Assembly: GCA_017616445.1 (NCBI GenBank) | Contig: JAFZYE010000037.1 | Location: 1 to 55,389 of the forward strand | Length of the DNA stretch: 55,389 bases | From: Bacteroidaceae bacterium | GTDB taxonomy: Bacteria; Bacteroidota; Bacteroidia; Bacteroidales; Bacteroidaceae | Direction of reading: 5' to 3' | Shown: positions 19,930-51,961 of the stretch, piece by piece | Numbering within the stretch: position 1 is the stretch's first letter | Layout of the letters: each line of letters begins with the position of its first letter | The notes under the pieces: model-generated | The model's database searches: none | What the model was told of the DNA's origin: nothing | Seen by the model: only the letters and a program-made list of their open reading frames with translations | Program-made: the position numbers and the translations under genes

Positions 19930-19961
19930 TTTGGTCAGTATAAGAAACCTCCATACCTTTG
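19930..19961 (+). promoter_or_regulatory. promoter of the DUF6266-like gene
   Basis: TTTG (19930-19933), 20-bp gap, TACCTTTG (19954-19961). The transcript would start near 19968, giving a leader of about 210 nt. A hairpin ACCGG...CCGGT (about 19963-19991) lies at its very 5' end. Confidence 0.75.
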
Positions 19962-20007
19962 CACCGGAATCACGAATTGGTGATGACCGGTCGATCTCTT
20001 TGATTGC

Positions 20008-20128
20008 TCATGTCAAACTCATGTTGCTATCACATCGTTCTCATATTAGACTCATATCGAACTCTAATCGAAGTCATATCGAACTCTAATCGAAGTCATA
20101 ACGAACTCTAATCGAACACTCATTGACC
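20008..20128. repeat. 11-bp phased array of eleven units in a leader
   Basis: Ungapped 11-mers run from 20008: tcatgtcaaac, tcatgttgcta, tcacatcgttc, tcatattagac, tcatatcgaac, tctaatcgaag, then the last pair repeated and varied to 20128. The central part is three copies of a 22-bp dimer (starts 20052, 20074, 20096). It is transcribed as part of the leader of the gene at 20178 if the promoter call is right. Confidence 0.85.
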
Positions 20129-20177
20129 TCAGTCTCCAAGGGTAGGATTTATGTTTAACTCTTAATCCTTTTAAACA

Positions 20178-21410
20178 ATGAAAGAGATTACTGTAAAGGT
20201 TGATGGTACCTCAAACCATCATGTGAAAAACCCAAAGACCACTGCACAGACAACGCAGCGTGTATTGGTAAAGGCTGTAGGCATGATCTACGCCGTGTTG
20301 AAAATCATTTGCAACCACTCTTTCGAGGGTGTCAGCAATGGCTATCAGTGTATGAACAAGTTCAAGAAAGTAAACCTCAAGTACCTTCGCGAACGTGCGG
20401 CAACGTTGCAGTACTCGGGACAGAGCCTGAGCCAATTCTTCCAGTTCATGCCGATTGACAGCGACAAGTGGTCGCCCTATGCTGCTATCATTTCACAGGG
20501 GCACCTGCCAGAGATTTCTGTAGGTATTGATGCCGAAGGAGGCCATGTGGCTTATGTGAACGCTCCGGGCAACACCTATGCCGACTTTGTCAATGCATGG
20601 GGCCTTCAGCGCGGTGACCAGATTACTTACGTCACGGTTCAGAAGCGTGAGGCTAAGTATGAAGCGAACTATGCCCGTGTCATTCTTAACCCCCGTAATG
20701 CGGACGGCAGCGGTGCTCCAATGACGACCGAAATCGTGAACAGCGAAGGCGAGTTCCCTTGCTCACACTGGAAGAACAAACTTAACTTCTCAACGTTCGC
20801 GTTCGACAACGACCACTACAACTTCGTGCTAGGCCGTGGAGGCATCGTGGTGGCAGCAGGCATCATCGTCAGCCGCAAGGACAAGAGCGGAGGTTGGTTC
20901 CGCAGCAACTGCCAACTTGTACTCAACGAAGCAGGCTTTGGTTCTGATCTTTGCAGCTTGGCTGAGGCTGTGGAAAAGAGCTACGCTACAGCTGACATCG
21001 ACATGGAGTCTGAGTTCTATCTTAACAACGCTGGTTCGGGCGGTACTGGCAGTACTGATGACACCACCCCAAGTGGTGGCAGTGGTGGAGTAACTCCAGG
21101 TGAACCCTCCTACAACACCCGTGCGACCATCAATGGCACCAGTCAGAGCATTGCAGGCGGTAGCGTGAATGCAACGGCACCTGTCACTTCAGTCGTTGTC
21201 AGCGGCAGCAACCTTGGCGATGTGACTTTCACTGCTAAGGTGGACGGCACAGGTGATACCATCAACCCTACCAGCCACAATGCTAACGGTGCAACCTTCA
21301 CTGGTTTGAACGTAGTGGCTGGTCACCGCCTCGTGGTGTACCGTGGCGGTACAATCTGGTTCACAATCACTGCTCAAACCGCTGGTGCCGGTGAAGAAGA
21401 GGGAATGTAG
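20178..21410 (+). CDS. DUF6266-like protein with C-terminal beta domain
   Basis: A 410-aa protein without signal peptide. The N-terminal region (about 18-75: NPKTTAQTTQRVLVKAVGMI, FEGVSNGYQCMNKFKKVNLKYLR) recalls DUF6266 of Bacteroidota, in which NPxTxAQ...R is followed by GF.G..NG; I hold this only moderately. A middle domain (about 110-275) has GLQRGDQITYVTVQ and AAGIIVSRKDKSGGWFRSNC. A Gly/Ser/Thr linker (about 287-318) leads to a C-terminal beta domain (about 318-400) and the tail GEEEGM. The leader carries an 11-bp phased array and TTAATCCTT 7 bp before the ATG. The DNA around the stop codon matches that of the DUF6261 gene at 50663 (GAAGAGGGAATGTA, then AGCAGACC). Function unknown. Confidence 0.7.
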   Translation: MKEITVKVDGTSNHHVKNPKTTAQTTQRVLVKAVGMIYAVLKIICNHSFEGVSNGYQCMNKFKKVNLKYLRERAATLQYSGQSLSQFFQFMPIDSDKWSPYAAIISQGHLPEISVGIDAEGGHVAYVNAPGNTYADFVNAWGLQRGDQITYVTVQKREAKYEANYARVILNPRNADGSGAPMTTEIVNSEGEFPCSHWKNKLNFSTFAFDNDHYNFVLGRGGIVVAAGIIVSRKDKSGGWFRSNCQLVLNEAGFGSDLCSLAEAVEKSYATADIDMESEFYLNNAGSGGTGSTDDTTPSGGSGGVTPGEPSYNTRATINGTSQSIAGGSVNATAPVTSVVVSGSNLGDVTFTAKVDGTGDTINPTSHNANGATFTGLNVVAGHRLVVYRGGTIWFTITAQTAGAGEEEGM

Positions 21411-21490
21411 AAGCAGACCCTCCCCCCCAAAAACAGCCCCCCTCTTATCCCCCTAAATGGAGGGAAGAGAAGGGCGGGAGTGACGGGTGG
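21411..21490. repeat. REP-like element 3' of the DUF6266-like gene
   Basis: It begins AGCAGACC, has several C-runs, the core CCCCCTAAATGGAGGG, and ends GGGAGTGACGGGTG. The copy after the DUF6261 gene (51843-51898) begins and ends alike. Confidence 0.65.
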
Positions 21491-21497
21491 AAACAAG

Positions 21498-21526
21498 AAA
21501 GGAGCCGTGTGGCTCCTTTCTTTATT
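21498..21526. terminator. bidirectional terminator
   Basis: AAAGGAGCC-GTGT-GGCTCCTTT is a perfect hairpin, followed by CTTTATTT. It lies between convergent genes and reaches the stop codon of the DUF1573 gene. Confidence 0.85.
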
Positions 21527-21944
21527 TCTTCTGTACGTCATTGCTTGGGACGGCTGTCATCTCGCCTGTGACATAGATGCGGACGAGATCTTCGGAGTTG
21601 GGTTTGCCGTTGTAGAAGACCTGGATGGTTTTCTTCAGCTTGCCAGGTAGTTTACCTGTGCCGTCGTAGGTGACACGAATCTCACCGGAACCGCCAGGGC
21701 TGATGAAGTCCTTGGGGTAGTCGGCTACGGTGCAGCCACAGGATGTATGGACGTAGGTGATGGCGAGCTTGGCCTTGCCTACATTCTTGAATTTGAAGAC
21801 ACAAGTCTGCACAGGATTGTCCTGTGAGAAGGTACCGAAGTCGATGGTGGTCTTCTCGAACTTGATGACGGGGTATTTCTTTGCTGTAGCGGTCATGGCA
21901 AACATGCATGCCAGCACAATCATAAGGGTCTTTACTGTTTTCAT
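21522..21944 (-). CDS. DUF1573 domain protein
   Basis: A 140-aa exported protein: signal peptide (LMIVLACMFAMTATA) then one DUF1573 domain, an Ig-like/ASH-type beta sandwich frequent in Bacteroidota. Diagnostic features are IKFEKTTIDFGTFSQ, VFKFKNVGKAKLAITYVHTSCGCTVADYP with the conserved CGC, and GSGEIRVTYDGTGKLPGKLKKTIQVF. The biochemical role is unknown; periplasmic location is inferred. It ends within the bidirectional terminator shared with the DUF6266-like gene. Six 8-bp repeats lie directly upstream (21957-22004), where a promoter would be expected. Confidence 0.9.
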   Translation of the reverse strand: MKTVKTLMIVLACMFAMTATAKKYPVIKFEKTTIDFGTFSQDNPVQTCVFKFKNVGKAKLAITYVHTSCGCTVADYPKDFISPGGSGEIRVTYDGTGKLPGKLKKTIQVFYNGKPNSEDLVRIYVTGEMTAVPSNDVQKK

Positions 21945-21956
21945 GTTATTGAATTT

Positions 21957-22004
21957 TTTCGTTATTACGTTATTTCGTTATATCGGTATATTGTTATTAT
22001 GTTA
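21957..22004. repeat. 8-bp tandem array, six units
   Basis: Units tttcgtta, ttacgtta, tttcgtta, tatcggta, tattgtta, ttatgtta are contiguous. They fill most of the gap between the adenosyltransferase gene and the DUF1573 gene. Confidence 0.75.
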
Positions 22005-22011
22005 TGGGATT

Positions 22012-22563
22012 TCATTTCTTCCATGTGACATCCTCTGTGCCTGTGTCGGCATTGAGCTTACGTGCCAGCACGAAGAGGTAGTCGCTGAGGCGGTTGATGT
22101 AGGAGGTGACGCATTCGTCGACCATAGCTCCGCACTCGATGAGGCGGAATACACAGCGTTCGGCTCTGCGGCAAATGGTGCGGCATACGTGTGCCTCGGC
22201 TGCTGAACGACAACCTCCGGGAAGGATGAAGAGTCGCAAGGGGGTAATCATCGTTTCCATGCGGTCGATCTCTGCCTCTAACTGAGCAACCATATCTGCT
22301 GTCACGGCAGTGGACGATGGTGTGGAGTTGGCGTTGTTGTCGGTAGCGAGATAGCCGCCAACGATGAACAGGGTATGCTGCACCTGAGTGAGGAACTCGA
22401 CATCGTGCTCATCGTCGCAATCGGTGATGAGCAAGCCGATGGCTGAGTTGAGCTCATCGATGGTGCCATAGCTCTCAAGTCGGTCGCAGCACTTCGATAC
22501 ACGCTGTCCACCGACCAATGAGGTCTGCCCTCTGTCGCCTGTCTTTGTATAAACCTTACCCAT
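22012..22563 (-). CDS. PduO-type corrinoid adenosyltransferase
   Basis: Transfers the adenosyl group of ATP to cob(I)alamin, giving coenzyme B12 (here probably for salvage, as no cobalamin biosynthesis genes are near). The start at 22563 gives 183 aa beginning MGKVYTKTGDRGQTSL, the family's ATP-binding N-terminus; the in-frame Met 17 codons earlier would add a region unlike the family. Further motifs are YGTIDELNSAIGLL, CRRAERCVFRL and YINRLSDYLFVLAR, all on the helices that form the trimer active site. Cytoplasmic. It follows rpiB on the same strand with a gap that holds heptamer repeats, so coupling is uncertain. Confidence 0.92.
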   Translation of the reverse strand: MGKVYTKTGDRGQTSLVGGQRVSKCCDRLESYGTIDELNSAIGLLITDCDDEHDVEFLTQVQHTLFIVGGYLATDNNANSTPSSTAVTADMVAQLEAEIDRMETMITPLRLFILPGGCRSAAEAHVCRTICRRAERCVFRLIECGAMVDECVTSYINRLSDYLFVLARKLNADTGTEDVTWKK

Positions 22564-22584
22564 AGCGTTCTTTATTGATTCAGT

Positions 22585-22651
22585 GGTGAGAGGTAAGAGG
22601 TGAGAGAATACCATGGGGTGTTTCCTAACTCCTAACTCCTAACTCCTAACT
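22585..22651. repeat. two heptamer arrays between rpiB and the adenosyltransferase
   Basis: GGTGAGA, GGTAAGA, GGTGAGA run from 22585 to 22605, and about three and a half TAACTCC units run from 22626 to 22650. The two arrays differ in sequence but share the 7-bp period. Confidence 0.75.
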
Positions 22652-22661
22652 AAGTCCCCGT

Positions 22662-23111
22662 CTAATGTCTATCTTTCACCGGGATGTCATCGATACGTGC
22701 CTGATGACGGCCTCCTGCAAATTCGGTAGCGAAGAACTCATCGAGACATTCGCGGCATGTCTCCTCAGAGATGAATCGGCCTGGGAAGACGATAACGTTG
22801 GCGTTGTTGTGCTCACGAATGAGGTGGGCAATCTCGGGCTGCCAAACCAATCCGGCACGGATGCCCTGATGTTTGTTGAGGGTCATGCTGATGCCCTCGC
22901 CACTGCCACACATGGCAATACCTGGATAGACTTCGCCACGCTCGATGCCTTCGGCCAATGCATGTCCGTAAGTTGCATAGTTGCAACTCTCTTCCGTGTA
23001 CGTACCATAATCTTTATATGCCATCCCCTTCTCTTCGAGGTATCGCTTCACAAACTGCTTCAATGGAAAAGCTGCATGATCGCTTGCAATTCCTACTGTT
23101 TTTATCTCCAT
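22662..23111 (-). CDS. rpiB: ribose 5-phosphate isomerase B
   Basis: Interconverts ribose 5-phosphate and ribulose 5-phosphate, complementing rpe earlier in the window. The ATG at 23111 gives 149 aa starting MEIKTVGIASDHAAF; a TTG three codons upstream is possible but less likely. Visible motifs: ASDHAAFPLK (phosphate and base), the catalytic Cys in AMCGSGEGISMTLNK, and GIRAGLVW with NVIVFPGRFI. Length is that of RpiB/LacAB enzymes. Its neighbours are unrelated; the usual transketolase partner is not here. Confidence 0.95.
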   Translation of the reverse strand: MEIKTVGIASDHAAFPLKQFVKRYLEEKGMAYKDYGTYTEESCNYATYGHALAEGIERGEVYPGIAMCGSGEGISMTLNKHQGIRAGLVWQPEIAHLIREHNNANVIVFPGRFISEETCRECLDEFFATEFAGGRHQARIDDIPVKDRH

Positions 23112-23199
23112 ACTCTTCAATTGTATTGTATTGCTTATATTTTGGGAGCAAATTTACAAATAATTCATAATTCGTAATGCATATTTCAACATAATTTAG

Positions 23200-23207
23200 T
23201 AATTTTG
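23200..23207 (+). promoter_or_regulatory. -7 box upstream of the flavodoxin gene
   Basis: TAATTTTG matches TAnnTTTG, 38 bp before the ATG. No good TTTG box at the right distance. Confidence 0.5.
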
Positions 23208-23245
23208 CCGCAAAATCAACTCAAAACAACGAAAATAACAAACTT

Positions 23246-24052
23246 ATGAAACGACTATTAGTATCTATTGTCATCATGGCAACAAGTATTGCAAGCATGT
23301 ACGCACAGAAGAATCTTGTGCTTTACTATTCAGAAACAGGTACCACGAAGACCGTGGCTGAAGAGTTGCAGAAACAACTTAGTGCAGACATCGAGGTCAT
23401 CGAATGTGTGAAGCCGTACTCTGGCAATTTCAACGAAACGATGCAACGCGGACAGCGTGAGATGCAGAGCAACGAATGGCCAGAGCTGAAGCCTTTGAAA
23501 TCGAAGTTGGCCAACTACGACGTCATCTTCCTCGGCTACCCTATCTGGTTCGGTACCTATGCCAACCCTATCCAAACATTGGTGAAGAACAACGACTTTG
23601 CAGGCAAGACCATCGTGCCTTTCTGTACCTTCGGTAGCGGAGGCCTGAACACATCGGCTGATGCATTGAAGAAGGCACTGCCAAAGGCAACTGTCAAAGA
23701 AGGATATGGTGTACGCACGGCCCGTGTAACTGCTGCTGCGAAGGAACTCGACCGCTTCCTGAAAGCGAATGGCTATAAAAAGGGTACGGTAGAGAAACTG
23801 CCAGACTTCTCTGCTCAAAAGCCTGTGACAGATGCTGAGAAAACGATTTTCAACGACGCATGCTCAAGCTATCAATTCCCTCTCGGCACTCCATCGACTG
23901 TAGGAAGCCGCAAGACATCGGACGGAACAGAATATAAGTTCATCGTGAAAAGCGGTGGCTTCGGCGGCGGTGGTGGCGGTGAATCCATCATCTACGTTGT
24001 CGTAGGCAAAGAAGCAGGAGCTAAACCTGAATTCACACAAGTGGTGAGATGA
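23246..24052 (+). CDS. exported flavodoxin-like protein
   Basis: A 268-aa protein with a signal peptide (LLVSIVIMATSIASMYA, cleavage near residue 20) and a flavodoxin domain. The FMN phosphate loop is YYSETGTTKTVAEEL (about 29-43), and the second flavin-contact region is FLGYPIWFGTYANPIQTLV with GKTIVPFCTFGSGGLNTS. After about residue 185 there is a separate C-terminal part with a Gly-rich GGFGGGGGGES segment and a beta-strand pair. Exported flavodoxins of this kind are common in Bacteroidota and usually regarded as periplasmic redox proteins, but their partners are unknown. It is monocistronic, ending before a terminator shared with dapA. Confidence 0.85.
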   Translation: MKRLLVSIVIMATSIASMYAQKNLVLYYSETGTTKTVAEELQKQLSADIEVIECVKPYSGNFNETMQRGQREMQSNEWPELKPLKSKLANYDVIFLGYPIWFGTYANPIQTLVKNNDFAGKTIVPFCTFGSGGLNTSADALKKALPKATVKEGYGVRTARVTAAAKELDRFLKANGYKKGTVEKLPDFSAQKPVTDAEKTIFNDACSSYQFPLGTPSTVGSRKTSDGTEYKFIVKSGGFGGGGGGESIIYVVVGKEAGAKPEFTQVVR

Positions 24053-24053
24053 T

Positions 24054-24085
24054 AAGGGTTAAGAGTTAAGAGTTAAGAGTTAAGA
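24054..24085. repeat. heptamer array
   Basis: GTTAAGA units repeat about four times directly after the flavodoxin stop; GAGGTGA units follow at 24106-24119. Confidence 0.8.
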
Positions 24086-24129
24086 AAAATAGACTTTAGA
24101 CGTTAGAGGTGAGAGGTGAGAGAGTAATA

Positions 24130-24159
24130 AAAAAACGGGGTCAGTTGACTCCGTTTTTT
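24130..24159. terminator. bidirectional terminator
   Basis: AAAAAACGGGGTCA pairs with TGACTCCGTTTTTT around GT (one G-T pair). It separates the flavodoxin gene from dapA, which converge here. Confidence 0.88.
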
Positions 24160-24164
24160 ATGTT

Positions 24165-25058
24165 TTAGTATTTGATGTTCAGTTCCTTGACGATGGCACT
24201 GATTTCGCCGAACGTGGTGAGACGTGCTGGAACCAGCGGAAGCCGGAGCTCGTTCTCAAGCAATCCCATGCTGTTCATCATGGCTTTTACGCCTGCCGGA
24301 TTACCGTCAACAAACAGCAGTTTGAACAATTCGGTGAACTTATGATGGATAATCAATGCATCGGAATAGTTTCCACTGAGTGCCAGACGTACCATACGTC
24401 CGAACTCATTCGGAAGGGCATTACCAATGACACTGATAACCCCGACAGCTCCCAATGTGATGAGGGGGAACGTGATGCCGTCGTCGCCTGAGATAACTTC
24501 GAAGTGTGCAGGTTTATTCTTGATGATGTCATCAATCTGCGTGAAGTTGCCGCTGGCCTCTTTGATGGCCACGATATTCGGGCAGTCATTAGCCAGACGC
24601 AAGGTGGTCTCAGCAGTCATGTTCACACCTACACGTCCTGGAACATTATAAAGTACAACCGGCAAGGTTGTGGCGTTCGCAATCGCTTTGAAATGCTGAT
24701 AGAGTCCCTCCTGCGATGGTTTGTTGTAATATGGACAAACACTGAGGATGCCGTCGATACCGGTGAAGTCTTCGGTCTGGAGGGTACGAACGATTTCGGA
24801 GGTATTGTTTCCACCGCATCCCATCAGGATAGGAATTGTGCCCTGAACCTTCTCAATGACAATCTCTTTGATCTTGTGTTTTTCTTCCGTCGTCAAACAA
24901 GGGGTCTCGCCAGTCGTAGCGAGTATGCATAGGAAATCGATACCGTTTCCCAACTGATAGTCAAGTATTCGTCGCAAAGAGTCATAGTCAACCGCACCAG
25001 CCTTCGTGAATGGTGTGACCAGTGCAATTCCTAAGCCTCTGAATTTATTATGTGCCAT
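24165..25058 (-). CDS. dapA: 4-hydroxy-tetrahydrodipicolinate synthase
   Basis: Condenses pyruvate with aspartate semialdehyde, the first committed step of lysine and diaminopimelate synthesis. The start at 25058 gives 297 aa beginning MAHNKFRGLGIALVTPF; the frame continues upstream but would add 21 atypical residues and would reach into the promoter. The Schiff-base lysine is Lys166 (IVAIKEASGNF), Tyr138 is in VVLYNVPGR with Arg142, and GTTGET is replaced by ATTGETPCL, where the Thr pair is kept. A -7 box at 25119-25126 provides its own transcription although ligA lies just upstream on the same strand. Confidence 0.95.
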   Translation of the reverse strand: MAHNKFRGLGIALVTPFTKAGAVDYDSLRRILDYQLGNGIDFLCILATTGETPCLTTEEKHKIKEIVIEKVQGTIPILMGCGGNNTSEIVRTLQTEDFTGIDGILSVCPYYNKPSQEGLYQHFKAIANATTLPVVLYNVPGRVGVNMTAETTLRLANDCPNIVAIKEASGNFTQIDDIIKNKPAHFEVISGDDGITFPLITLGAVGVISVIGNALPNEFGRMVRLALSGNYSDALIIHHKFTELFKLLFVDGNPAGVKAMMNSMGLLENELRLPLVPARLTTFGEISAIVKELNIKY

Positions 25059-25118
25059 GATGTTGTTGTTGTGATGACTGCCAAATGCAAACTTTGCAGC
25101 CATTTTAGTTTTCGGGCG

Positions 25119-25126
25119 CAAAGGTA
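25119..25126 (-). promoter_or_regulatory. -7 box of dapA
   Basis: Minus strand TACCTTTG (25126-25119), about 60 bp before the chosen ATG; the -33 region overlaps the end of ligA and is weak. Confidence 0.6.
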
Positions 25127-25144
25127 CGAAAAAACTATGACATA

Positions 25145-28041
<2,897 letters not shown>

Positions 28042-28071
28042 AACCTTGTCCTTATTTAATTATTGCAATGC

Positions 28072-28851
28072 TTATTCTACGAAATTGTCGTTATACCATT
28101 CGCCCTCGTACACTTCACCGTCAACAGTAGTCAATTTGCCATGACCGTTGCGCATGTCGTGCTTCCAGTTGCCCTCGTATTTATTGCCGTTTTCCCATGT
28201 ATAGGTTCCATACCCTTCTGCCTGACCGTGATGGAAGTTTCCGTTGTAGCGGCTGCCACTTGAATAGAGATAGGTTCCGTGTCCTTCTCTCTTGCCGTTT
28301 TCCCAAGAGCCAATATACTTGTCCCCATTAGGGAATTCCATCGTTCCAGAACCATGAGGGAGTCCTTTCTTGAACGTACCGGTATATTTCTCTGCAAACT
28401 CATTGATAGCCACTCCTTCGCCTTCGAGCCATCCGTTGCGGAACGTACCTTCTTTCATCGAACCGTCCTTGGCCAGATACTTACCTTGTCCGTTAGGATG
28501 ACCTTTTCGGTATTCACCCTCATAGTACGACCCGTCTGCCCAAGTATAGATACCCTCACCGCAAGGCACACTGTCAACAAACTCACCCTCAAAAGTGTTG
28601 CCATTCGCCCAAGTATATTTACCTTGACCGTTAGGCTTATCCTTCTTCCACTCACCTTCGTAAGAACAACCGTTGTTCCACGTCATCTTACCCTTACCAC
28701 AACGTTCACCGTTTTTCCAATCACCATCGTACACACTACTGTCAGCAAATTCATAACGAGAATTCCCGTCAACAGGTTTTTCAGTTCGCTGTCCGCCACA
28801 CGACATCAACATCATGAAGGCTGGAAGCAGCAGATACATCATCTTTTTCAT
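28072..28851 (-). CDS. MORN-repeat lipoprotein
   Basis: A 259-aa lipoprotein (signal peptide ending LMSC, Cys18) whose mature part is almost entirely MORN repeats: nine full 23-residue units and a partial tenth, of the form YEGEWKxGxxxGxGxxxWxNGxx. Clear examples are YDGDWKNGERCGKGKMTW, YEGEWKKDKPNGQGKYTW and YIGSWENGKREGHGTYLY; the fifth unit is the most degenerate. MORN arrays form elongated beta sheets that bind lipids or proteins, but no specific partner can be named for bacterial ones. Transcription starts from a -7 box at 28874-28881. ispE follows by 30 bp. Confidence 0.92.
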   Translation of the reverse strand: MKKMMYLLLPAFMMLMSCGGQRTEKPVDGNSRYEFADSSVYDGDWKNGERCGKGKMTWNNGCSYEGEWKKDKPNGQGKYTWANGNTFEGEFVDSVPCGEGIYTWADGSYYEGEYRKGHPNGQGKYLAKDGSMKEGTFRNGWLEGEGVAINEFAEKYTGTFKKGLPHGSGTMEFPNGDKYIGSWENGKREGHGTYLYSSGSRYNGNFHHGQAEGYGTYTWENGNKYEGNWKHDMRNGHGKLTTVDGEVYEGEWYNDNFVE

Positions 28852-28873
28852 TTTCTTTTCATGATTTTGCTTG

Positions 28874-28881
28874 CAAAATTA
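28874..28881 (-). promoter_or_regulatory. -7 box of the MORN gene
   Basis: Minus strand TAATTTTG (28881-28874), 23 bp before the ATG, giving a short leader. Confidence 0.55.
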
Positions 28882-28975
28882 GTAATTTATGATGAATTAA
28901 GAATGATGAATCGCAGATTATTTCATCTTTGATGTCAGATTTCGCTATTTTTATTCCTTTTCTGCGGATTACATG

Positions 28976-40848: not shown

Positions 40849-40854
40849 TGTTAA

Positions 40855-42543: not shown

Positions 42544-42551
42544 AAGTGGTG

Positions 42552-42559: not shown

Positions 42560-42566
42560 CAAAAAA

Positions 42567-42596: not shown

Positions 42597-42707
42597 AAAG
42601 TGAAGATTTCTGATAAAAAAAGGCAAAAACTGTGCTCCTTTAAATAAAATAAGGTGTAAAACCGCAAGTTTTTCACCATCAACACGTTAAATAACGGGAA
42701 AAAGCCG

Positions 42708-42715
42708 TAAATTTG
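42708..42715 (+). promoter_or_regulatory. -7 box of the second GH3 gene
   Basis: TAAATTTG, 56 bp before the ATG. The -33 region is poor. Confidence 0.5.
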
Positions 42716-42770
42716 TCTCACTAAAGGGAAAAGGATAAAAAAGTAGAAACAATTAATATCAAGTCAAAAC

Positions 42771-44936: not shown

Positions 44937-44937
44937 A

Positions 44938-44983
44938 CTTTAGGCTCTAGACTTTAGACTTTAAACTATAAACTTTAAACAAT
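44938..44983. repeat. heptamer array between GH3 and lemA
   Basis: TAGACTT, TAGACTT, TAAACTA, TAAACTT, TAAACAA-type units follow one another. Confidence 0.75.
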
Positions 44984-44990
44984 AACCATT

Positions 44991-45587
44991 ATGAATATTA
45001 CTTTAGGTTCAGGTATTTTGGGCACTGCATTCTTCGCAGTTGTCGTAGTGTTAGTGATTATCCTCGTTATCTATTTCATCAGCACCCAGCGTTCACTCGT
45101 CAACCTCGACGAGATGTGCAAGAACGCACTCAGTCAGATTGAAGTTCAGCTCAACTCACGTTGGGATGCCCTATTAGGATTGGCTCAGGTTGCATCGAAA
45201 TATGCCAAGCACGAGTCGGAAACCCTTATCAACGTCATCCAGCAGCGTCGCGGCGAGACTGTCAATACGCCTGAGGCTGTAAACGAGCAGCAGAGTGCAC
45301 TCCGTCAGGTCATGGGACAGCTGATGGCCATCCGTGAGAGCTATCCTGAGCTCAAGGCCGATAACCTCTTCATCGAGGTACAGGACGGTGTGAAGCAATA
45401 CGAGGAGAACGTGCGCATGTCACGTATGATTTACAATGATACCACCACCAAGATGAACCGCATGGTGCGCCAGTGGCCTTCATCCATCGTGGCTTCGATG
45501 CTCCATTTCAATGTGAGAGAGTATCTCAAGGTCGATGAAGAACAGAAGAAGAGTTATCCAAACCTCAACGAAGCATTCAACCAGTAA
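44991..45587 (+). CDS. LemA family protein
   Basis: A 198-aa protein with one N-terminal transmembrane helix (about 9-28, TAFFAVVVVLVIILVIYFIS) and an all-helical domain. LemA hallmarks are NLDEMCKNALSQIEVQLNSRWDALLGL and the later NVRMSRMIYNDTTTKMNRMVRQWPSSIVASM (family: YN..V..YN...). The N-terminus is outside, as in other LemA proteins, by inference. Function unresolved. It lies 3 bp before a DUF2207 gene; LemA and DUF2207 proteins are commonly paired, suggesting a joint membrane function. Confidence 0.93.
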   Translation: MNITLGSGILGTAFFAVVVVLVIILVIYFISTQRSLVNLDEMCKNALSQIEVQLNSRWDALLGLAQVASKYAKHESETLINVIQQRRGETVNTPEAVNEQQSALRQVMGQLMAIRESYPELKADNLFIEVQDGVKQYEENVRMSRMIYNDTTTKMNRMVRQWPSSIVASMLHFNVREYLKVDEEQKKSYPNLNEAFNQ

Positions 45588-45590
45588 ACG

Positions 45591-47255
45591 ATGAGACGAC
45601 TCTTCTTTTGGATAGCAGCCTGTCTGCTATCACTACCCACGTTTGCACAACACGAGCTGCACAACCTCTATATCGACGTAGAACTCCAACCTAATGGTGA
45701 TGCCTACATTACCGAAACACGCGAGATGACGGTCGGATCGGAAGGGACGGAGTGCTACATCGTGATTGGAAACCTCAACGGGAGCGTAGTGAACGACCTC
45801 AGCGTAACGGATGAGACAGGTCGCACGTACGACTACATCGGACTTTGGAACGTCAACCGCTCTCGTAGCGAGAAAGCCAACAAGTGTGGCATCGTGCAGA
45901 AAGAGAACGGTTACGAGTTGTGCTGGGGTATCGGCGAACCAGGCAAACGTACTTATGTCACATCCTACATCGTCACCGACCTCCTTCGCGGCTACTCCGA
46001 ATCCGACGGATTCAACTATATGTTTGTCGCTCGCAACATACAGCCCTACCCTCAGCATGTCGAGCTCACCATGTGGGCAGCCGACGGGACAGAGCTCAAC
46101 GACTCCGTTGCCAACATCTGGAGCTTCGGACACGTAGGCGAAATCTGGTTCGGCGACAGTTGCATCAACGCAGAAAGCACAGAGCCGTTCGCTGACGGCT
46201 ACTCCATGATTATCATGGCTGAGTTCGCAAAGGGAATCTTCTCGCCAAAGGTTCAGAACACCGAATCGTTCGAGACCGTCAAAGAACGTGCCTTCGAAGG
46301 GAGTGACTACCTCATGGAGGAGGAATCCGATTCCTTTGACGATTGGATGGATCGCATCATCGGAGGAATCGTCTCAATCGGTTGCTTGCTCTTTGCAGGA
46401 CTCTGTCTCATCGGCTGGCCTGTCTATTGGGCTTGGCAGAAATACAAGTTCAACAAAGACCTTCAGTGGTATCGTGAAATCCCCTTCAGTGGCAACCTGC
46501 ATACAGCCAACGACGTGCTCAACGTCTTCAAATTTTCAGGCAAGGACTACAACAAACTGCTCTCGGCCTTAGTGGCCAAACTCATCGCTGACGGCTGCAT
46601 CAGTGTCGAGCCGCGTCCTGACGCAAAGGGAGAAATCAAACCCTTCTTCGTCATCCACGAATGGCCTGCCAATGCCAGCACACAACCGCTACTGCGTCAG
46701 CTCCATCGCATCTTCAAGGTGGCAGCAGGTTCCGACTCCGTACTCGAAGCCCGCGAGTTGCGCGACTACATGAAGAACAAAGCCAACAGCAACACCACCG
46801 AATCGTTCGCCAAGGCACTCCACACCTCATCCATGAGCATCTCGTCCTGCCAACGCCAGAGGGACGAAGTGCGTAAGCTCCTCGGCCTTCGCAAGTTCCT
46901 CAAAGAGTTCTCACTCCTCGACGAGCGAGGCATCAAGGATGTCAAGCTTTGGAAAGACTATATGGTCTATGCTACCCTCTTCGGCATATCCAAGCAAGTC
47001 ATCAGCGACATGCGCAAGATTAACCCAGAGTTCTTCGAATTAGACAATATAGCCGACCAGATGGTAGCAAGCGTGGAAGTACCTGCTGTCTATACCGTGC
47101 TCCATCAAGGCATCTCCGAAGCCTACATCAACAAGCTGTCAAAAGAATACGCTGCCCGTGGTGGTTCGAGCCGTAGCTTCGGAGGCGGTGGCCACTCTTC
47201 GTTCGGAGGCGGTGGCGGCTTCTCAGGAGGTGGCTGCGGAGGAGGAATCCGATAA
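45591..47255 (+). CDS. DUF2207 membrane protein with glycine-rich C-terminus
   Basis: A 554-aa protein: signal peptide (FFWIAACLLSLPTFA), an extracytoplasmic DUF2207 beta domain (about 20-225; LYIDVELQPNGDAYITETREM is the typical opening), a transmembrane segment at about 258-284 (IIGGIVSIGCLLFAGLCLIGWPVYWAW), and a cytoplasmic part with helical segments, ending in a Gly-rich tail (SSFGGGGGFSGGGCGGG). This order is standard for the family, except that a second membrane helix often seen after the cytoplasmic part is absent. It is cotranscribed with lemA. The activity is unknown. Confidence 0.9.
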   Translation: MRRLFFWIAACLLSLPTFAQHELHNLYIDVELQPNGDAYITETREMTVGSEGTECYIVIGNLNGSVVNDLSVTDETGRTYDYIGLWNVNRSRSEKANKCGIVQKENGYELCWGIGEPGKRTYVTSYIVTDLLRGYSESDGFNYMFVARNIQPYPQHVELTMWAADGTELNDSVANIWSFGHVGEIWFGDSCINAESTEPFADGYSMIIMAEFAKGIFSPKVQNTESFETVKERAFEGSDYLMEEESDSFDDWMDRIIGGIVSIGCLLFAGLCLIGWPVYWAWQKYKFNKDLQWYREIPFSGNLHTANDVLNVFKFSGKDYNKLLSALVAKLIADGCISVEPRPDAKGEIKPFFVIHEWPANASTQPLLRQLHRIFKVAAGSDSVLEARELRDYMKNKANSNTTESFAKALHTSSMSISSCQRQRDEVRKLLGLRKFLKEFSLLDERGIKDVKLWKDYMVYATLFGISKQVISDMRKINPEFFELDNIADQMVASVEVPAVYTVLHQGISEAYINKLSKEYAARGGSSRSFGGGGHSSFGGGGGFSGGGCGGGIR

Positions 47256-47274
47256 AAAGGAAGCCCTGGAAAAG

Positions 47275-47306
47275 GAGACAAGAAGACAAGAAGACAAGGA
47301 GACAAG
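47275..47306. repeat. 8-bp tandem array, four units
   Basis: GGAGACAA, GAAGACAA, GAAGACAA, GGAGACAA, shortly after the DUF2207 stop. Confidence 0.85.
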
Positions 47307-47356
47307 ACAATAGATTGCAGGTATTCTCGTATTCCAAATCCAAAGAGATAAATTAT

Positions 47357-47389
47357 AAATTGTAAATAGTAAATCGTCAAATTGTAAAT
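47357..47389. repeat. 33-bp dispersed repeat, copy 2
   Basis: 32 of 33 positions match 3160-3192. Here the repeat runs into the start codon of the next gene, supplying its AT. Confidence 0.85.
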
Positions 47390-49805
47390 GAAAATGGTTA
47401 AACTAAACAAAATCCTTTTGGGAACCTTCGTGATTGCAACCGCCAGTCTGATGCTCTCATGTAGCAGCAAAGACGACGACAACGGAGGAAACAACAACAA
47501 TCTTGTGATTCCCAACCAGTCAACCCGCATTGCAGTGCTGAACGGCACTATGAAAACAACAGAGCTCTATGGACTCGTACACGACAACAACGGCAACCCA
47601 ATCTCAGGCGTGACCGTAGGTAGCGGTACAGCTGTTACGACCACTGATGCATCTGGTACATTCGCGTTAGCCAACATTGAAGTCGTAAAAGGACGTACCG
47701 TCGTCGACTTCAAGAAAGACGGCTACTTCACCGTAGTACGTTCGTTCACCGAAGCCGACAAAGACGAGTGGGATGTAGTGATGATAAGCAAGAACGACGT
47801 TTCGAGCGCAACATCCGAATCCTATAAGTCGAACGAGAAGGTTACATTGGAAACGCTGGACGGCATGCAGGTAGAGATGCCTGCCGACGGTTACAAGAAC
47901 GCAGCGACAGGAGCAGCCTACAATGGTACCGTAAACACCGAGATGGTCTATCTCGATCCCGATGACGACAACTTCGCAAGCATGATGCCAGGTGGTGACC
48001 TCGCTGCAGTAAGGAGCGACAACTCCGAGGTGCAACTCGTCAGCTACGGTATGACCAAGGTCGACATGTCCGACGCATCAGGCAACAAGCTGCAACTGCA
48101 GGACGGTAAAGAGGCCGAACTGACCTTCCCTATTCCTGAGAGCTTCAAAGGCAAGGAACTGCCTGCCACCATTCCACTCTGGAGTTTCAACGAGAGCACA
48201 GGTCTTTGGGAAGAAGAAGGTGAGGCAACCCTTCAGGACGGAGTCTATGTAGGTAGCGTAAAGCACTTCTCATGGGTGAACCTCGACTGGCCTGAGAGCC
48301 GTGTAACTTGTGTCATTACTGTCAAGACCAAGACGGGGAAAGTCGTTCCAAGAACCATCGTTCATGTCGGACAGACCACAGCTGTGACGAATGCCGAAGG
48401 CCGTGCCCAGTGTTTCATTCCTGAGAACACGGATGTTGACATCTGCATCAAGCCACAGGACTATGGCAACTACTCACCAGAGGTAAGCGTCCATGTCAAC
48501 GGCGTTGCAGGAGGCGGCACAGTACAGAAGGAGCTGGTGGTTCCCGACATGGCAACCATCAAGGGTAAGGTAGTGAACAAAGACGGGTCTTCGTTATCAA
48601 CCGTATGGATTGAATACGGACTGGAAGAGACTCGCAAGGCACACACCGACCTCGACGGTGCGTTCACCATCATGGCACCAGCCGACTACACAGGCGTTGC
48701 CACACTCAAGATACGTGCAGCAAATGGCGAGTACTTCACAAAGGCGATTGAGCTTACAGGCGACGACATCGACTTGGGCGACATCGACATCAACGCAAAG
48801 ATTGAGTACAAAGAAGGCGGTGTGATACTGGTTACAACCGACGACGACAAGACCTACGAACTCCCCATACAGATGGAAAACAACTTCGACAACGGAGCCA
48901 TCATCGTGGACAGCATGCTCATGGTTATCAGCTCTACCAACATGGGTAGCACAGAAGCAATGGCCGAAGATGAAGAGCCAGACGAAGAATTGTTGTGGGT
49001 ATTTGAATGCGATAACTACGACAGTCGCATGGGTACTGGTACGGGCAGCTTCATTTGGGAGCTGAAAAGCCCTCAAAAGATGACCATGGCCCTCGTTAAC
49101 AAAACAGCATCCTTTACAACTCGCATAAGCGACAATAAGCTGTCTTTGGACATGAGTGGACGCGGTGTCTTCATCAACATAGAGAGTGAGGATGACTACC
49201 TGCAGTTTGCCAACATCGATATGGAAAAGGGCAATGCCAATTTCGTTGGCTCCGGAATGAACTTCGACATCCTGTACCACGGCAACACGGTACGTCCGCT
49301 CACATCAAAGCAAATGCCAGCCTTCGCGCAGAAGGTATTCCTTCTATCATATCCTGTAGGACTCCTGATGCAATCGAAATACTTCCAGAAAGGCAGCATA
49401 GGATTCCAAAATGGCGATTATAATCGATTCAAGACATTGGCAACCAATGCCCTGCGTCTCGGATTGCCGCTGATCAGCTCAATGGATATGGGCCAAGGCG
49501 ACGATATGTTTGAAGTTGTTTACTACGGCAACCAAAAATTAGTCATTGTAAAATTCGACCCAAGTATCAAGTGGGATGCCGAAGCAGCACAGACAGGTAG
49601 CGCATTCAGCTTCGATGCTCCAATCGAATTGGTTGTCGTAGAGGGCATCGAACAAGAATTCATCGATATGGTGATGAACATGGGCGGTTCTGATGAATCA
49701 GAAGACGAAGTGCTCAGAACACCGCGACGTGCCCCACACAAGCTTTCATTCTTAAGCCGACTGAAGCAACAGCTCAAACCAACAAAACCAACAAGGAAAT
49801 TCTAA
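47388..49805 (+). CDS. large lipoprotein with carboxypeptidase-regulatory-like domains
   Basis: An 805-aa lipoprotein (signal peptide ending LMLSC, Cys25, then a polar Asp/Asn linker). Beta-sandwich domains of the carboxypeptidase-regulatory type are seen at about 60-130 (LYGLVHDNNGNPISGVTVGSG, VDFKKDGYFTV), 305-380 (KTGKVVPRTIVHVG) and 388-465 (IKGKVVNKDGSSLSTVWIEYG, TDLDGAFTIMAP). The region 130-300 contains GAAYNGTVNTEMVYLDPDD and HFSWVNLDWP, a pattern I associate with Bacteroidota surface lipoproteins. The last 300 residues are unrecognised and end in a basic tail. A second ATG two codons on is possible. A surface-exposed or periplasmic binding role is inferred. Confidence 0.8.
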   Translation: MKMVKLNKILLGTFVIATASLMLSCSSKDDDNGGNNNNLVIPNQSTRIAVLNGTMKTTELYGLVHDNNGNPISGVTVGSGTAVTTTDASGTFALANIEVVKGRTVVDFKKDGYFTVVRSFTEADKDEWDVVMISKNDVSSATSESYKSNEKVTLETLDGMQVEMPADGYKNAATGAAYNGTVNTEMVYLDPDDDNFASMMPGGDLAAVRSDNSEVQLVSYGMTKVDMSDASGNKLQLQDGKEAELTFPIPESFKGKELPATIPLWSFNESTGLWEEEGEATLQDGVYVGSVKHFSWVNLDWPESRVTCVITVKTKTGKVVPRTIVHVGQTTAVTNAEGRAQCFIPENTDVDICIKPQDYGNYSPEVSVHVNGVAGGGTVQKELVVPDMATIKGKVVNKDGSSLSTVWIEYGLEETRKAHTDLDGAFTIMAPADYTGVATLKIRAANGEYFTKAIELTGDDIDLGDIDINAKIEYKEGGVILVTTDDDKTYELPIQMENNFDNGAIIVDSMLMVISSTNMGSTEAMAEDEEPDEELLWVFECDNYDSRMGTGTGSFIWELKSPQKMTMALVNKTASFTTRISDNKLSLDMSGRGVFINIESEDDYLQFANIDMEKGNANFVGSGMNFDILYHGNTVRPLTSKQMPAFAQKVFLLSYPVGLLMQSKYFQKGSIGFQNGDYNRFKTLATNALRLGLPLISSMDMGQGDDMFEVVYYGNQKLVIVKFDPSIKWDAEAAQTGSAFSFDAPIELVVVEGIEQEFIDMVMNMGGSDESEDEVLRTPRRAPHKLSFLSRLKQQLKPTKPTRKF

Positions 49806-49811
49806 CACAGC

Positions 49812-49842
49812 AACGGACAGGGTTCAAATCCTGTCCGTTTTG
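49812..49842 (+). terminator. Rho-independent terminator of the lipoprotein gene
   Basis: AACGGACAGG and CCTGTCCGTT form a perfect 10-bp stem around GTTCAAAT, followed by TTGGTTG. The arms resemble those of the terminator at 17032. Confidence 0.75.
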
Positions 49843-49885
49843 GTTGTTATGGTATATAGGGGGAAGGAGTATGACCCTTGTGACG

Positions 49886-49940
49886 ACACTCACATTAAGC
49901 CCCAACGGGGCGACATAGTATTATAGCAAACGGACAAGGT
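49886..49940. repeat. dispersed hairpin repeat, copy 2
   Basis: CACTCAC, hairpin GCCCC-AAC-GGGGC (49899-49911), then GACATAGTATTATAGCAAA and CGGACAAGG. It corresponds to 16971-17045. In both places it is near a CGGACA...TGTCCG terminator. Confidence 0.75.
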
Positions 49941-50132
49941 TAGAAATTCACAACAAAACTTAGGTCATCTTAGCTTTCGTCAAGATGAGGTGATGTAAAA
50001 GCCGCCATGTGTCATAAGAAACACGTGGCAAATTTATACTAATCATATTACAAAACGTAACGAAAAACGGGAAATTTCTTTATATTTCATCGAATTCTTG
50101 CATGAAGCTATACGGAGTTGATGATTTTTCAC

Positions 50133-50140
50133 TACATTTG
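50133..50140 (+). promoter_or_regulatory. -7 box of the DUF6261 gene
   Basis: TACATTTG; if used, the leader would be about 515 nt. The -33 region is not convincing. Confidence 0.5.
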
Positions 50141-50203
50141 CAATAGAAAAATTTGGTTTTAGAGCCAACAGTTTATCGTAACGTCATAAATCCACTAAAC
50201 AAA

Positions 50204-50289
50204 CTTTTTTGCGATACAACGAAGGCTGCCTGCTCATACCCTGAAATGGGGCGTGGGCATTGAAGGTATACAACAGTATCGCAAAAAGG
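50204..50289 (+). other. strongly structured segment of the DUF6261 leader
   Basis: TTTTTGCGATAC (50206-50217) pairs with GTATCGCAAAAA (50276-50287). Inside, TGCCTGC pairs with GTGGGCA (two G-U pairs) and ACCC with GGG(G). The whole folds into one long hairpin with internal loops. No known RNA family is recognised. It could also be a small non-autonomous element with terminal inverted repeats, though I see no target duplication. Confidence 0.55.
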
Positions 50290-50441
50290 AAGTGGACCTT
50301 ATGACGTATGTTGTTATCCGTAAATGCATAACGCCTCTTTTTTAAGAAAAACAAAAACAGGCGATATATGACTATGAAGCAGCAAATCTGCAATAAGGAA
50401 GGACGACCTCCGCCTGCACATGACGGGCCATGAGGCAACCT

Positions 50442-50609
50442 CGAATGGGGGTCGTTGGAGCTCGCAAAAAGATTATGAAACCTCGAACGAGAGTCGTTGA
50501 AGGCCACACAACGATTGTGAAACCAGGAACGAGGGTCGTTGGAACCCGCACAACGATTGTGAAACCAGGAACGAGGGTCGTTGGAACTCGTTTAACGATA
50601 GAGTAAGCT
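50442..50609. repeat. 42-bp tandem repeat, four copies
   Basis: Copies start at 50442, 50484, 50526 and 50568; a weak fifth may precede. Each copy holds two 13-nt palindromes 21 bp apart: AACGA-GGG-TCGTT and CACAA-CGA-TTGTG. In the first copy the first palindrome is AATGG-GGG-TCGTT, which keeps pairing by G-U. The last copy has lost the second palindrome. Confidence 0.85.
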
Positions 50610-50662
50610 CGAACGACACCAGAATGAACTAACCCAATTATTAATCCTTAAAAAGTGTATTT

Positions 50663-51841
50663 ATGGCAGAAACTAATCAACTGAATCATGCGTGGTTGGC
50701 ATCATTGGCCAATCCGCATCATGACGGCACGACACAGCAGATTGACGATTTCGTAGCCGCTTTTACAACCGACAACCAAGTATTTAATCAGAAGAAAGCA
50801 GTCATCCATCAAGCTCGACTGAAGGAAGATGAAGTATGGCTGAAATCGCAACGCGACGCAGTGGTGCCATTGCTCGAAGCAGCCGACAAGAAGCAGGATA
50901 GTTACATCACGGCAACACGTTATATCATCAATGCACATGCAGGACTGCCAGAAGACGAGGCAACGAAGACCGAGGCACAGCAGTGTGCACAAGTATTCAA
51001 AGACTATAATTTCCGCACTGATGATGCCTACGGCGCAGAGTCGGACAAAATCATCCAGATGCAGCAGAACCTGCAAGCCCATCAGACGTACCTGACGAAC
51101 ATAGGTGCATGGACATTCTTCACCAAAGCAGTGGAGCAAGCCCAGTTGGTTCGTCAGTACCTCGGCCAGCGAGCACAGACCAAGGGTGAGTTCGTGAAGG
51201 GCGAGATGAAGTCAGCACGCAAGGCCACCGACCAGGCCATAGCCGAACTCTACAAGACCATCACGGCCATGATGGAACTCATACCATCGGCCGAACTTAC
51301 CGCACTCTACACAAAATTGAAGGGTATCGAAATCTATGCACGCCAATACTATTTGGGCGATGGCTCCGCAGTAGGATCAGGTGGAGGAACCTCCACTAAC
51401 ACCTCCCAAGGAGGGGAATCGAATGGTTCAGGAAGTTCTGGAGGTACAGGTGGTACTGGAGGTACAGGTGGTTCTGGAGGTACAGGTGGTTCTGGAGGTT
51501 CTGGAGATTCAGGAGGATCAAGCGGTTCCGGAGATTCAGGAGGTTCAAGCGGCACAGGCGGTTCAAGCGCCGTAGCAGCTCCAACAATCAGCGGAACCAC
51601 TCCGTTCGACAACTCGACTCAGGTAACCATCGGTGGCCCAGAAGGTGCAAGCATCAAATACACCACCAACGGTATAGCTCCAACGTTAACGTACGGTAAT
51701 GACTACGAGGAGGCAATCACGCTCAATGCATCTGCAACCGTGAAAGCAGTAGCCATCGTAGACGGCCAAGTTAGCGAGGTCACTTCTAAGCAGTTCACGA
51801 AGAACGGAGAGAGCGGTGGAGGAGGTGAAGAGGGAATGTAA
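50663..51841 (+). CDS. DUF6261 protein with Gly/Ser linker and chitobiase-type C-terminal domain
   Basis: A 392-aa protein without signal peptide. Residues about 5-235 are an all-helical domain that I recognise as DUF6261 (HDGTTQQIDDFVAAFTTDNQVFN..., NFRTDDAYGAESDKIIQMQQ, LYTKLKGIEIYARQYYLGD). A 70-residue Gly/Ser-rich linker (about 238-308) of GGT/GGS/GDS triplets follows, partly made by a REP-like insertion, then a chitobiase/fibronectin-III-associated domain (about 311-380: APTISGTTPFDNSTQVTI, IKYTTNG) and the tail GGGGEEGM. TTAATCCTT precedes the ATG by 13 bp. The leader carries the 42-bp array. The stop region matches the DUF6266-like gene at DNA level. Function unknown; lack of a signal peptide is odd for the C-terminal domain type. 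Confidence 0.78.
   Translation: MAETNQLNHAWLASLANPHHDGTTQQIDDFVAAFTTDNQVFNQKKAVIHQARLKEDEVWLKSQRDAVVPLLEAADKKQDSYITATRYIINAHAGLPEDEATKTEAQQCAQVFKDYNFRTDDAYGAESDKIIQMQQNLQAHQTYLTNIGAWTFFTKAVEQAQLVRQYLGQRAQTKGEFVKGEMKSARKATDQAIAELYKTITAMMELIPSAELTALYTKLKGIEIYARQYYLGDGSAVGSGGGTSTNTSQGGESNGSGSSGGTGGTGGTGGSGGTGGSGGSGDSGGSSGSGDSGGSSGTGGSSAVAAPTISGTTPFDNSTQVTIGGPEGASIKYTTNGIAPTLTYGNDYEEAITLNASATVKAVAIVDGQVSEVTSKQFTKNGESGGGGEEGM
51389..51418. repeat. REP-like element inside the DUF6261 coding region
   Basis: CCTCCACTAACACCTCCC-AA-GGAGGGG reads in frame as TSTNTSQGGE within the linker. Its palindromic part is CCTCCCAAGGAGGGG (51402-51416). Confidence 0.65.
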
Positions 51842-51842
51842 C

Positions 51843-51898
51843 AGCAGACCAAGATCCGCTCCCCAAGCCCCCTCCCTTTAGAGCGGGGGTGACGGGTG
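51843..51898. repeat. REP-like element 3' of the DUF6261 gene
   Basis: Begins AGCAGACC, has CCCCCTCCCTTTAGAGCGGGGG as core (51869-51889) and ends GTGACGGGTG, like 21411-21490. Confidence 0.65.
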
Positions 51899-51938
51899 AA
51901 GAAGTTTGAAAAAAAGCAATGTAAAAACGTAAGAAATG

Positions 51939-51961
51939 GGAGAGCAACGGCTCTCCTTTTT
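51939..51961. terminator. bidirectional terminator
   Basis: GGAGAGC pairs with GCTCTCC around AACG, then TTTTTA. It lies between the convergent DUF6261 and GH27 genes. Confidence 0.82.

Follow-up and report, generated by a model that had tools for sequence, protein, structure and literature searches.

Tandem arrays of helical period upstream of HU-HIG, DUF6261 and other genes of Bacteroidales, and C-terminal tails common to their proteins

Introduction

Why should two unlinked genes with unrelated N-terminal domains share one layout? The window analysed here is a stretch of 55,389 nucleotides, contig JAFZYE010000037.1 of the Bacteroidaceae bacterium assembly GCA_017616445.1, and it carries gene A (20178-21410) and gene B (50663-51841). 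In both, a leader with phased repeats precedes the coding sequence, a Gly/Ser linker follows the N-terminal domain, the protein ends in EEGM and a common 3' element lies behind the stop; a preliminary description of the window had pointed out this layout, and its coordinates and features proved right. We consider it on balance probable that genes A and B belong to a group of Bacteroidales one-gene modules, in which a protein is paired with a helically phased array of its own, where the protein would bind the array, regulate its own gene and meet a partner through its tail.

Four findings carry this reading. The arrays belong to gene families, with fixed periods and with units that differ between nearly all loci. 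The palindromic positions of the units are constrained in the DUF6261 and HU-HIG families. Several HU-HIG genes and one DUF6261 gene have copies of their array elsewhere in the same genome. Finally, proteins with unrelated N-terminal domains end in one common tail in several genomes. Genomes are referred to by G-numbers, G000 being the assembly of the window (2.38 Mb, about 70% complete), contigs by C-numbers and loci by L-numbers; for two loci, L009 and L010, the start codon was assigned manually.

Genes A and B

The gene A locus has the following features, the promoter being read against what we take to be the Bacteroidetes promoter consensus.

19930..19961, + strand: promoter of gene A, Bacteroidetes-type, TTTG, 20 bp and TACCTTTG (19954-19961), read from the sequence
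20010..20126, + strand: leader array in an 11-bp register, supported by Tandem Repeats Finder (TRF) and a phase test, outer limits set by eye
20133..20151, + strand: block TCTCCAAGGGTAGGATTTA between array and start, found by eye, with a similar form in orthologues
20178..21410, + strand: gene A, with N-terminal domain, Gly/Ser linker, C-terminal beta domain (about residues 314-404) and tail EEGM
21396..21407, + strand: EEGM tail codons
21412..21489, + strand: 3' hairpin element AGCAGACC...GTGACGGGTG
21491..21525, + strand: intrinsic-terminator-like hairpin, by eye only and without a terminator scan

The repeat periods described earlier were recovered by TRF (11/22 bp for gene A, 42 bp for gene B), and each gene has a tandem array of helical period upstream. 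In the gene A leader TRF gives period 22 at 20052-20116, with unit TCATATCGAACTCTAATCGAAG and an 11-bp sub-register. The phase test finds 8 in-phase copies against a maximum of 3 in 40 shuffles, and a gene A 21-mer occurs twice in the window against none in 100 shuffles.

Gene A encodes 410 amino acids and had been labelled DUF6266-like. The profiles do not support membership, and we rejected it: a Pfam search gives no match up to E 10, the cut-off of DUF6266 (PF19781) is not reached, and hhalign against five DUF6266 proteins returns a probability of 2.5%. The likeness consists of a weak NP(K/R)T-x-x-Q motif and a common leader class, some leaders having an AACTCTA-like core. Structure prediction gave a mean predicted local distance difference test score (pLDDT) of 47.8 and was confident in the C-terminal beta domain alone; a fold search returned no match at E 0.001, and a PDB sequence search nothing usable (three matches, best E 0.059).

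Ten orthologues of gene A (76-84% identity) are found in genome records named Bacteroidaceae, Prevotellaceae or Prevotella, mostly with ruminant or rumen-type names. All ten have an array in 11-bp register before the start codon, followed by a CTCCAAGGGTAGGA-like block, and the array unit drifts in concert among them. A TAnnTTTG box lies upstream of the array at 9 of the 11 gene A loci (8 of the 10 orthologues). The 3' signature and the EEGM end are found in none of the ten.

Gene B, a DUF6261 gene, has a comparable organization.

50133..50140, + strand: TACATTTG, candidate promoter and the only TAnnTTTG in 600 bp upstream
50437..50616, + strand: leader array of 42-bp units with imperfect dyad AACGAgggTCGTT (TRF core 50449-50587)
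50663..51841, + strand: gene B, with DUF6261 domain (50873-51316), Gly/Ser linker, CHB_HEX_C_1/Fn3_assoc domain (51605-51781) and tail EEGM
51827..51838, + strand: EEGM tail codons
51843..51898, + strand: 3' hairpin element AGCAGACC...GTGACGGGTG
51935..51964, + strand: intrinsic-terminator-like hairpin, likewise by eye only and without a terminator scan

The protein of 392 amino acids passes the DUF6261 (PF19775) cut-off with 59.3 bits against 27 (E 5.6e-16). Its N-terminal part, predicted from the single sequence without an alignment, is all helical at a pLDDT of 45.8. Because of the low pLDDT, and since the fold search with gene A had no match, we claim no fold for either gene. Most PDB sequence matches of gene B lie in the low-complexity linker, with none convincing elsewhere. 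The C-terminal beta domain ascribed to both proteins is indeed present in both, but the two domains differ, and that of gene B alone is common with HU-HIG paralogues. Neither gene matches the HU-HIG profile (PF18291), and PADLOC profiles identify no anti-phage defence family in either at E up to 1. A viral origin was considered and dropped, no relatives being found in viral contigs and the best PHROG match having E 0.12. The motif TTAATCCTT, which precedes both start codons and had been suggested as a mark of the family, was also dropped as not specific (6 matches against 4 in the reversed control).

An inverted repeat, TTTTTTGCGATAC...GTATCGCAAAAAGG, lies between the candidate promoter and the array of gene B at 50204-50289. 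Further downstream, a tRNA-Leu (caa) reported by ARAGORN at 54003-54096 (- strand) falls inside a predicted melibiase/NPCBM gene (51960-54440, - strand) and is probably a false positive.

Leader arrays as a property of gene families

Leaders in 11-bp register are found at 11 of 11 gene A loci and 5 of 5 DUF6266 loci of the genus. DUF6261 is present in 39 of 301 genomes and 11 of 30 genera, and 600 bp upstream were scanned at 52 of its loci, 12 within the genus and 40 in other members of the family, the latter picked from DUF6261 matches with contig-edge and partial matches left out. An array was found at 41 of these loci, and all 41 are of period 40-43. The best array is never of this period in 82 control regions, which comprise 400 bp each against the 600 bp for DUF6261.

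For HU-HIG genes, matches with open frames below about 160 amino acids (save a few) and some contig-edge matches were left out, and arrays were accepted at a TRF score of at least 60. At this threshold 34 of 53 upstream regions carry arrays, 33 of them with period 21-23 or 44, compared with 17 of the 82 controls, of which 12 also have period 21/22. The control set is not clean: one of the 17 array-bearing regions (L098_3350) belongs to an HU-HIG gene and three more, two of them sides of one array, carry HU-HIG leader units of their genome, G008; all were left in. HU-HIG proteins with GG in the last 60 residues were classed as tailed and the others as tail-less, so that L084 and L086 count as tail-less. 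Among the tail-less genes, 17 of 21 arrays lie at most 150 bp downstream of TAnnTTTG.

The periods are kept within a family and the units are not. Only 3 of 820 pairs of DUF6261 arrays are similar at E 1e-3, and none of the 19 pairs from the same genome. Tail-less HU-HIG arrays are similar in 10 of 190 pairs, all between genomes (0 of 21 within a genome), a pattern as orthologues would give. The preliminary description had asked whether repeat units differ between strains; here they differ between nearly all loci and drift among gene A orthologues. It had also proposed that the leaders may be functional parts of a family of loci, a view that would have suffered if relatives lacked phased leaders. 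Since they are present in the proportions given above, that half of the proposal is strongly supported.

Array copies elsewhere in the genome

Period 21 or 22 was found for 56 of the 86 tandem arrays in 450 kb of G008. Of the dispersed ones (period 21, 22, 43 or 44, with those adjacent to HU-HIG genes excluded), 25 of 49 match a G008 HU-HIG leader at E 1e-4. Nine leaders were compared, and the matches are spread over six HU-HIG paralogues. Compared with 50 leaders from other genomes, the 49 arrays gave no match. One DUF6261 gene of G300 has its 40-bp array repeated at two more DUF6261 loci and at eight sites by other genes; these eight are apparently intergenic, as the overlapping open frames look like repeat read-through. 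Thus, dispersed copies are known for six HU-HIG genes of G008 and one DUF6261 gene of G300. A sample of 120 kb from G213 with 15 DUF6261 matches has eight arrays of 40-43 bp, one of which is a DUF6261 leader (L222 and L228, with misplaced starts, were excluded from the argument), and no such array occurs in 120 kb of G021, a genome without DUF6261.

Could these arrays instead be minisatellites carried in miniature inverted-repeat transposable elements (MITEs), which land by chance before such genes and are not recognised by the proteins? Several dispersed families of G008 have common outer arms, TTTCTATAG...CTATAGAAA, and 16 of 19 occurrences of CTATAGAAA in 440 kb flank arrays, always in one orientation with TTTCTATAG on the left and CTATAGAAA on the right (e.g. 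C28:58988, C28:71858 and C1:165481). These inverted arms could be transposon ends or the site of a second protein. Moreover, MITEs of Porphyromonas gingivalis hold tandem repeats of 23 and 41 nt and have IS5-type ends (PMC4596501). On the other hand, chance landing does not lead one to expect family-specific periods at all gene A and DUF6266 loci, at 41 of 52 DUF6261 loci and at many HU-HIG loci, nor units private to nearly all loci. Exact CTATAGAAA was not found beside the five G008 HU-HIG leader arrays inspected, and the arrays of genes A and B are single-copy in the roughly 70% of the genome assembled in G000. We therefore regard this explanation as unlikely. Mobility of the arrays and their recognition by a protein can both hold.

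Other arrays and array copies were noted, some with no assigned gene. Related-looking 22-bp units (CTTGCTAAACAACGCGATGTTT and others) at C1:474, C1:22875, C1:116832, C1:170199 and C32:23622 of G008 match no sampled HU-HIG leader. In G000 a 22-bp array, TTGTTAACCTTAGGGTTTGCAA, is found at C38:28095 and C67:33171 and was matched to no owner gene. The HU-HIG gene on C44 has its unit repeated near C38:27900, and the DUF6266 gene on C48 has its own at C54:73503-73608 and again at the beginning of the window.

211..265, - strand: 11-bp array with the CAACTCTATAC-type unit of the DUF6266 gene at C48 of G000

The array at 211..265 possibly served as leader to a gene that the contig end truncates. That on C54, an 11-bp leader of DUF6266 type, is well separated from the start-like codon that follows it; as no DUF6266 match was reported there, it is either an orphan leader or belongs to a missed gene.

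Duplex DNA or RNA

Units of 40 DUF6261 arrays have an inverted-repeat score of 5.64 against 4.32 when shuffled (p 1e-6; taken one by one, 10 of 40 reach significance at 0.05), and those of 21 tail-less HU-HIG arrays 4.90 against 3.71 (p 0.002). Mutations are about half as frequent in the stems as elsewhere. Among arrays with a stem score of at least 5, the ratio of stem to non-stem mutations is 0.55 in 36 DUF6261 arrays, where none of 2000 rotated masks is as low, and 0.57 in 12 HU-HIG arrays, where one of 2000 is.

Such palindromes would also be expected if the leaders act as RNA, either as tandem hairpins or binding sites in the 5' untranslated region that control translation or as separate small RNAs. 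DUF6261 units with inverted repeats above chance fit that explanation, and the many arrays that follow a TAnnTTTG box and precede the start codon are probably transcribed. An RNA hairpin should, however, tolerate G.U over A.C, and no such bias is seen: stem changes to G.U and A.C number 19 and 15 in DUF6261 and 6 and 11 in tail-less HU-HIG arrays, few changes having entered the comparison. The two window leaders do not fold better than shuffles (z -1.05 and 0.06), an Rfam scan of the window gives no match over the gathering score, six HU-HIG loci have the array upstream of the -7 box and 19 of 60 G008 arrays sit between divergent genes. The periods, furthermore, follow the DNA helix. An action as RNA thus appears very unlikely. 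The missing G.U bias, together with less mutated stems and helical periods, favours a constraint that acts on duplex DNA.

C-terminal tails and 3' ends

EEGM before a stop occurs ten times in G000 and not in the control. All ten end proteins of the kind discussed here: A, B, four intact HU-HIG proteins (matching PF18291) and four genes cut by contig ends. The same last four residues are thus found in A, B and four HU-HIG proteins with different N-terminal domains. A contig end coincides with, or comes within about 300 bp of, six of the ten genes (on C36, C38, C44, C50, C61 and C78), which would be expected if the assembly breaks at similar C-terminal modules. That the truncated EEGM genes on C36 and C38 are paralogues of gene A was a guess that BLASTP, applied to C36 alone, does not support.

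EEGM ends none of 50 DUF6261 proteins of other genomes, because tails are lineage-specific; those seen elsewhere are VDQN/TDQN, FDDGD, EDITEE, NEQEGE, GGSPL, DDGEL or GTDES. We compared the last four residues of proteins with a stop, of which HU-HIG proteins (27 of 60 kept) also needed GG among their last 60 residues; L080 was then excluded. Across N-terminal domain families, identity is 3.78 of 4 within genomes (41 pairs) against 0.70 between genomes, and over all pairs 3.56 (111 pairs) against 0.73; neither value is reached in 1000 label shuffles. One protein each deviates in G011 and G297, and the common tail of G212 is a loose one. Codons vary, VDQN for example having several spellings in G004. 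Short tails that are common to non-homologous proteins of one genome yet differ between lineages are in themselves of interest, and we know of no precedent for them.

What, then, accounts for the similarity of genes A and B around the stop? Both end in GAAGAGGGAATGTA, and their DNA is 92% identical over 24 nt (E 9e-5 in that small set). The stop-crossing pattern GAAGAGGGAATGTAN{0,6}AGCAGACC occurs exactly twice in G000, both times in the window, and AGCAGACCN{30,60}GTGACGGGTG three times, in each case 3' of a gene that ends in EEGM, namely A, B and an HU-HIG gene on C57; controls gave none of either. It had been argued that protein selection does not explain identity across a stop codon. Up to the stop a protein-level constraint can explain it, since the tail is written in different codons. 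The identity is that of a protein tail plus a 3' hairpin element absent from gene A orthologues. This element is a hairpin repeat that recurs in variant form after some tailed genes of the related species G004 and G012. Copies of its core, GTGACGG(G/A)TG, also lie away from tailed genes: of 5 in 160 kb of G000, 3 follow such genes.

The similarity could also reflect gene conversion between paralogues and insertion of a common repetitive extragenic palindromic (REP) element, with leaders that are independent and of no joint meaning. In support of this, the nine EEGM genes apart from A have C-terminal modules with 75-100% pairwise DNA identity (that of B 75-81% to the others), the alignments of C57/C61 and C38/C78 extend about 60-70 nt beyond the stop and the 3' element is seen again behind tailed genes. 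An exchanged 3' module with its flank, as first proposed, is visible in these two pairs. Conversion would, however, explain the 3' end only and not the leaders, which are kept in gene A orthologues without the 3' signature; nor does it account for varied tail codons in one genome or for tails kept across unrelated N-terminal domains in four genomes. We hold it to be quite unlikely. As a functional part of the loci, the 3' end fares less well than the leader: EEGM is missing from the 10 gene A orthologues and the 50 foreign DUF6261 proteins, whereas it ends such proteins at all its stops in G000.

A possible mechanism and points against it

If genes A and B are modules of a protein and its own array, the parts may work together as follows. 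Units of 11, 21/22 or 40-44 bp, often placed between promoter and start codon, would correspond to about one, two or four helical turns. HU folds bind DNA, and the N-terminal domain, an HU fold in HU-HIG proteins, may bind its own array cooperatively along one face of the DNA. The bound protein would then autoregulate its gene and, where copies exist, might also act at distant chromosomal sites, and the linker with its lineage-specific tail could dock these proteins onto one common partner. For genes A and B, whose arrays were seen at no place other than their own leaders, the most direct prediction is autoregulation. Binding, regulation and the tail partner are inferred from sequence patterns.

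Several observations weigh against this reading. Among the families, no profile or fold match points to DNA binding for DUF6261 or gene A. Arrays are missing at 11 of 52 DUF6261 loci and, among HU-HIG loci, at 8 of 29 that are tail-less and 10 of 27 that are tailed, and 21/22-bp arrays precede ordinary genes too (12 of the 82 controls). Units are not always private: one unit family is common to three of the four G300 DUF6261 genes, and two pairs of tailed HU-HIG genes within one genome have similar units. As regards dispersed copies, 24 of the 49 G008 arrays have no assigned owner, and of the seven other G213 arrays only one has a core (17-nt matches) in common with a DUF6261 leader from G213. 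G297, with nine DUF6261 genes, has one 40-43 bp array in 160 kb, and G004, G006, G011 and G012, all with DUF6261, have none in 180 kb; the arrays of A and B have no significant second copy in the incomplete G000. The G.U test rests on few changes, and since palindromes are lacking in the 11-bp units, gene A may work in another mode. Finally, cross-family tail pairs come from four genomes (G000, G004, G006 and G012), three of which, G004, G006 and G012, have one DQN tail in common, for which reason we call the tails lineage-specific rather than genome-specific; and 4 of the 16 genomes with at least two members (G028, G149, G213 and G300) have no common tail.

Taken as a whole, the pattern, seen in gut bacteria of the Bacteroides/Prevotella group, suggests an undescribed system where each protein recognises its own DNA address. 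A wider version is tentative and, in our view, doubtful: a chromosome-wide addressing code, where each HU-HIG, DUF6261 or DUF6266-like paralogue would own a private phased array, present at its own gene and sometimes at further chromosomal sites, and plug through its tail into a common partner, unit and tail together giving lineage-specific recognition, and where the minisatellite MITEs of P. gingivalis would be address sites. Such a code would possibly organise the nucleoid or tell own from foreign DNA.

Recognition of private arrays would give DUF6261 and the gene A family a first testable function and connect the multiplication of HU-HIG proteins in Bacteroidetes with defined sites in the DNA. 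It could also account for the minisatellite elements of P. gingivalis described in 2015.

Comparison with known systems

HU-HIG proteins (PF18291) combine an HU fold with a Gly-rich or Ig part, and many paralogues per genome are seen here. Their expansion in Bacteroidetes was reportedly described by Burroughs et al. in 2017, in an account said to contain no leader arrays, dispersed cognate arrays or common tails.

Iteron and partition-site (parC, parS) arrays are bound by a protein encoded alongside. Like these, the present arrays are helically phased direct repeats at the gene of the presumed binder, with a unit private to each system; unlike them, they come with many paralogues per genome and a common tail. 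A Pfam scan of three neighbour genes identified no replication initiator or partition NTPase. TAACTGA repeats are also intergenic direct repeats upstream of genes, in some Bacteroidetes among others, but as presented in the section of that study used here they have one fixed 7-nt unit and no such helical period or cognate protein (PMC4679880).

Minisatellite MITEs of P. gingivalis look like the closest known relatives. The tandem repeats BrickBuilt (23 nt) and PgRS/464 (41 nt) lie in MITEs and resemble the present arrays in being intergenic, with units of 23 or 41 nt, about 10-20 copies per genome and inverted ends (PMC4596501, in the portion used here). The same portion presents them as transposon-derived minisatellites and makes no link to a cognate protein, HU-HIG, DUF6261 or tails (PMC4596501). 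The arrays of A and B, single in G000, do not share their multi-copy nature. One element, BrickBuilt_14 (84 nt, no terminal repeats listed), lies between PGN_0871 (- strand) and PGN_0872 (+ strand), the latter being listed as a PF00216 DNA-binding protein (PMC4596501). Judging from the listed strands it would lie upstream of PGN_0872, as the present model would predict.

In mainly open-access literature, searches for DUF6261, DUF6266, DUF4469, HU-CCDC81 and HU-HIG retrieved no account of these arrays or tails and one mention of HU-HIG in a table; those for tandem repeats with HU, Bacteroides or Prevotella retrieved nothing apparent on them beyond the P. gingivalis MITE work. Iteron-like arrays, minisatellite MITEs and HU paralogues are each known kinds. 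The pairing of whole protein families with private phased arrays and common tails appears to be new.

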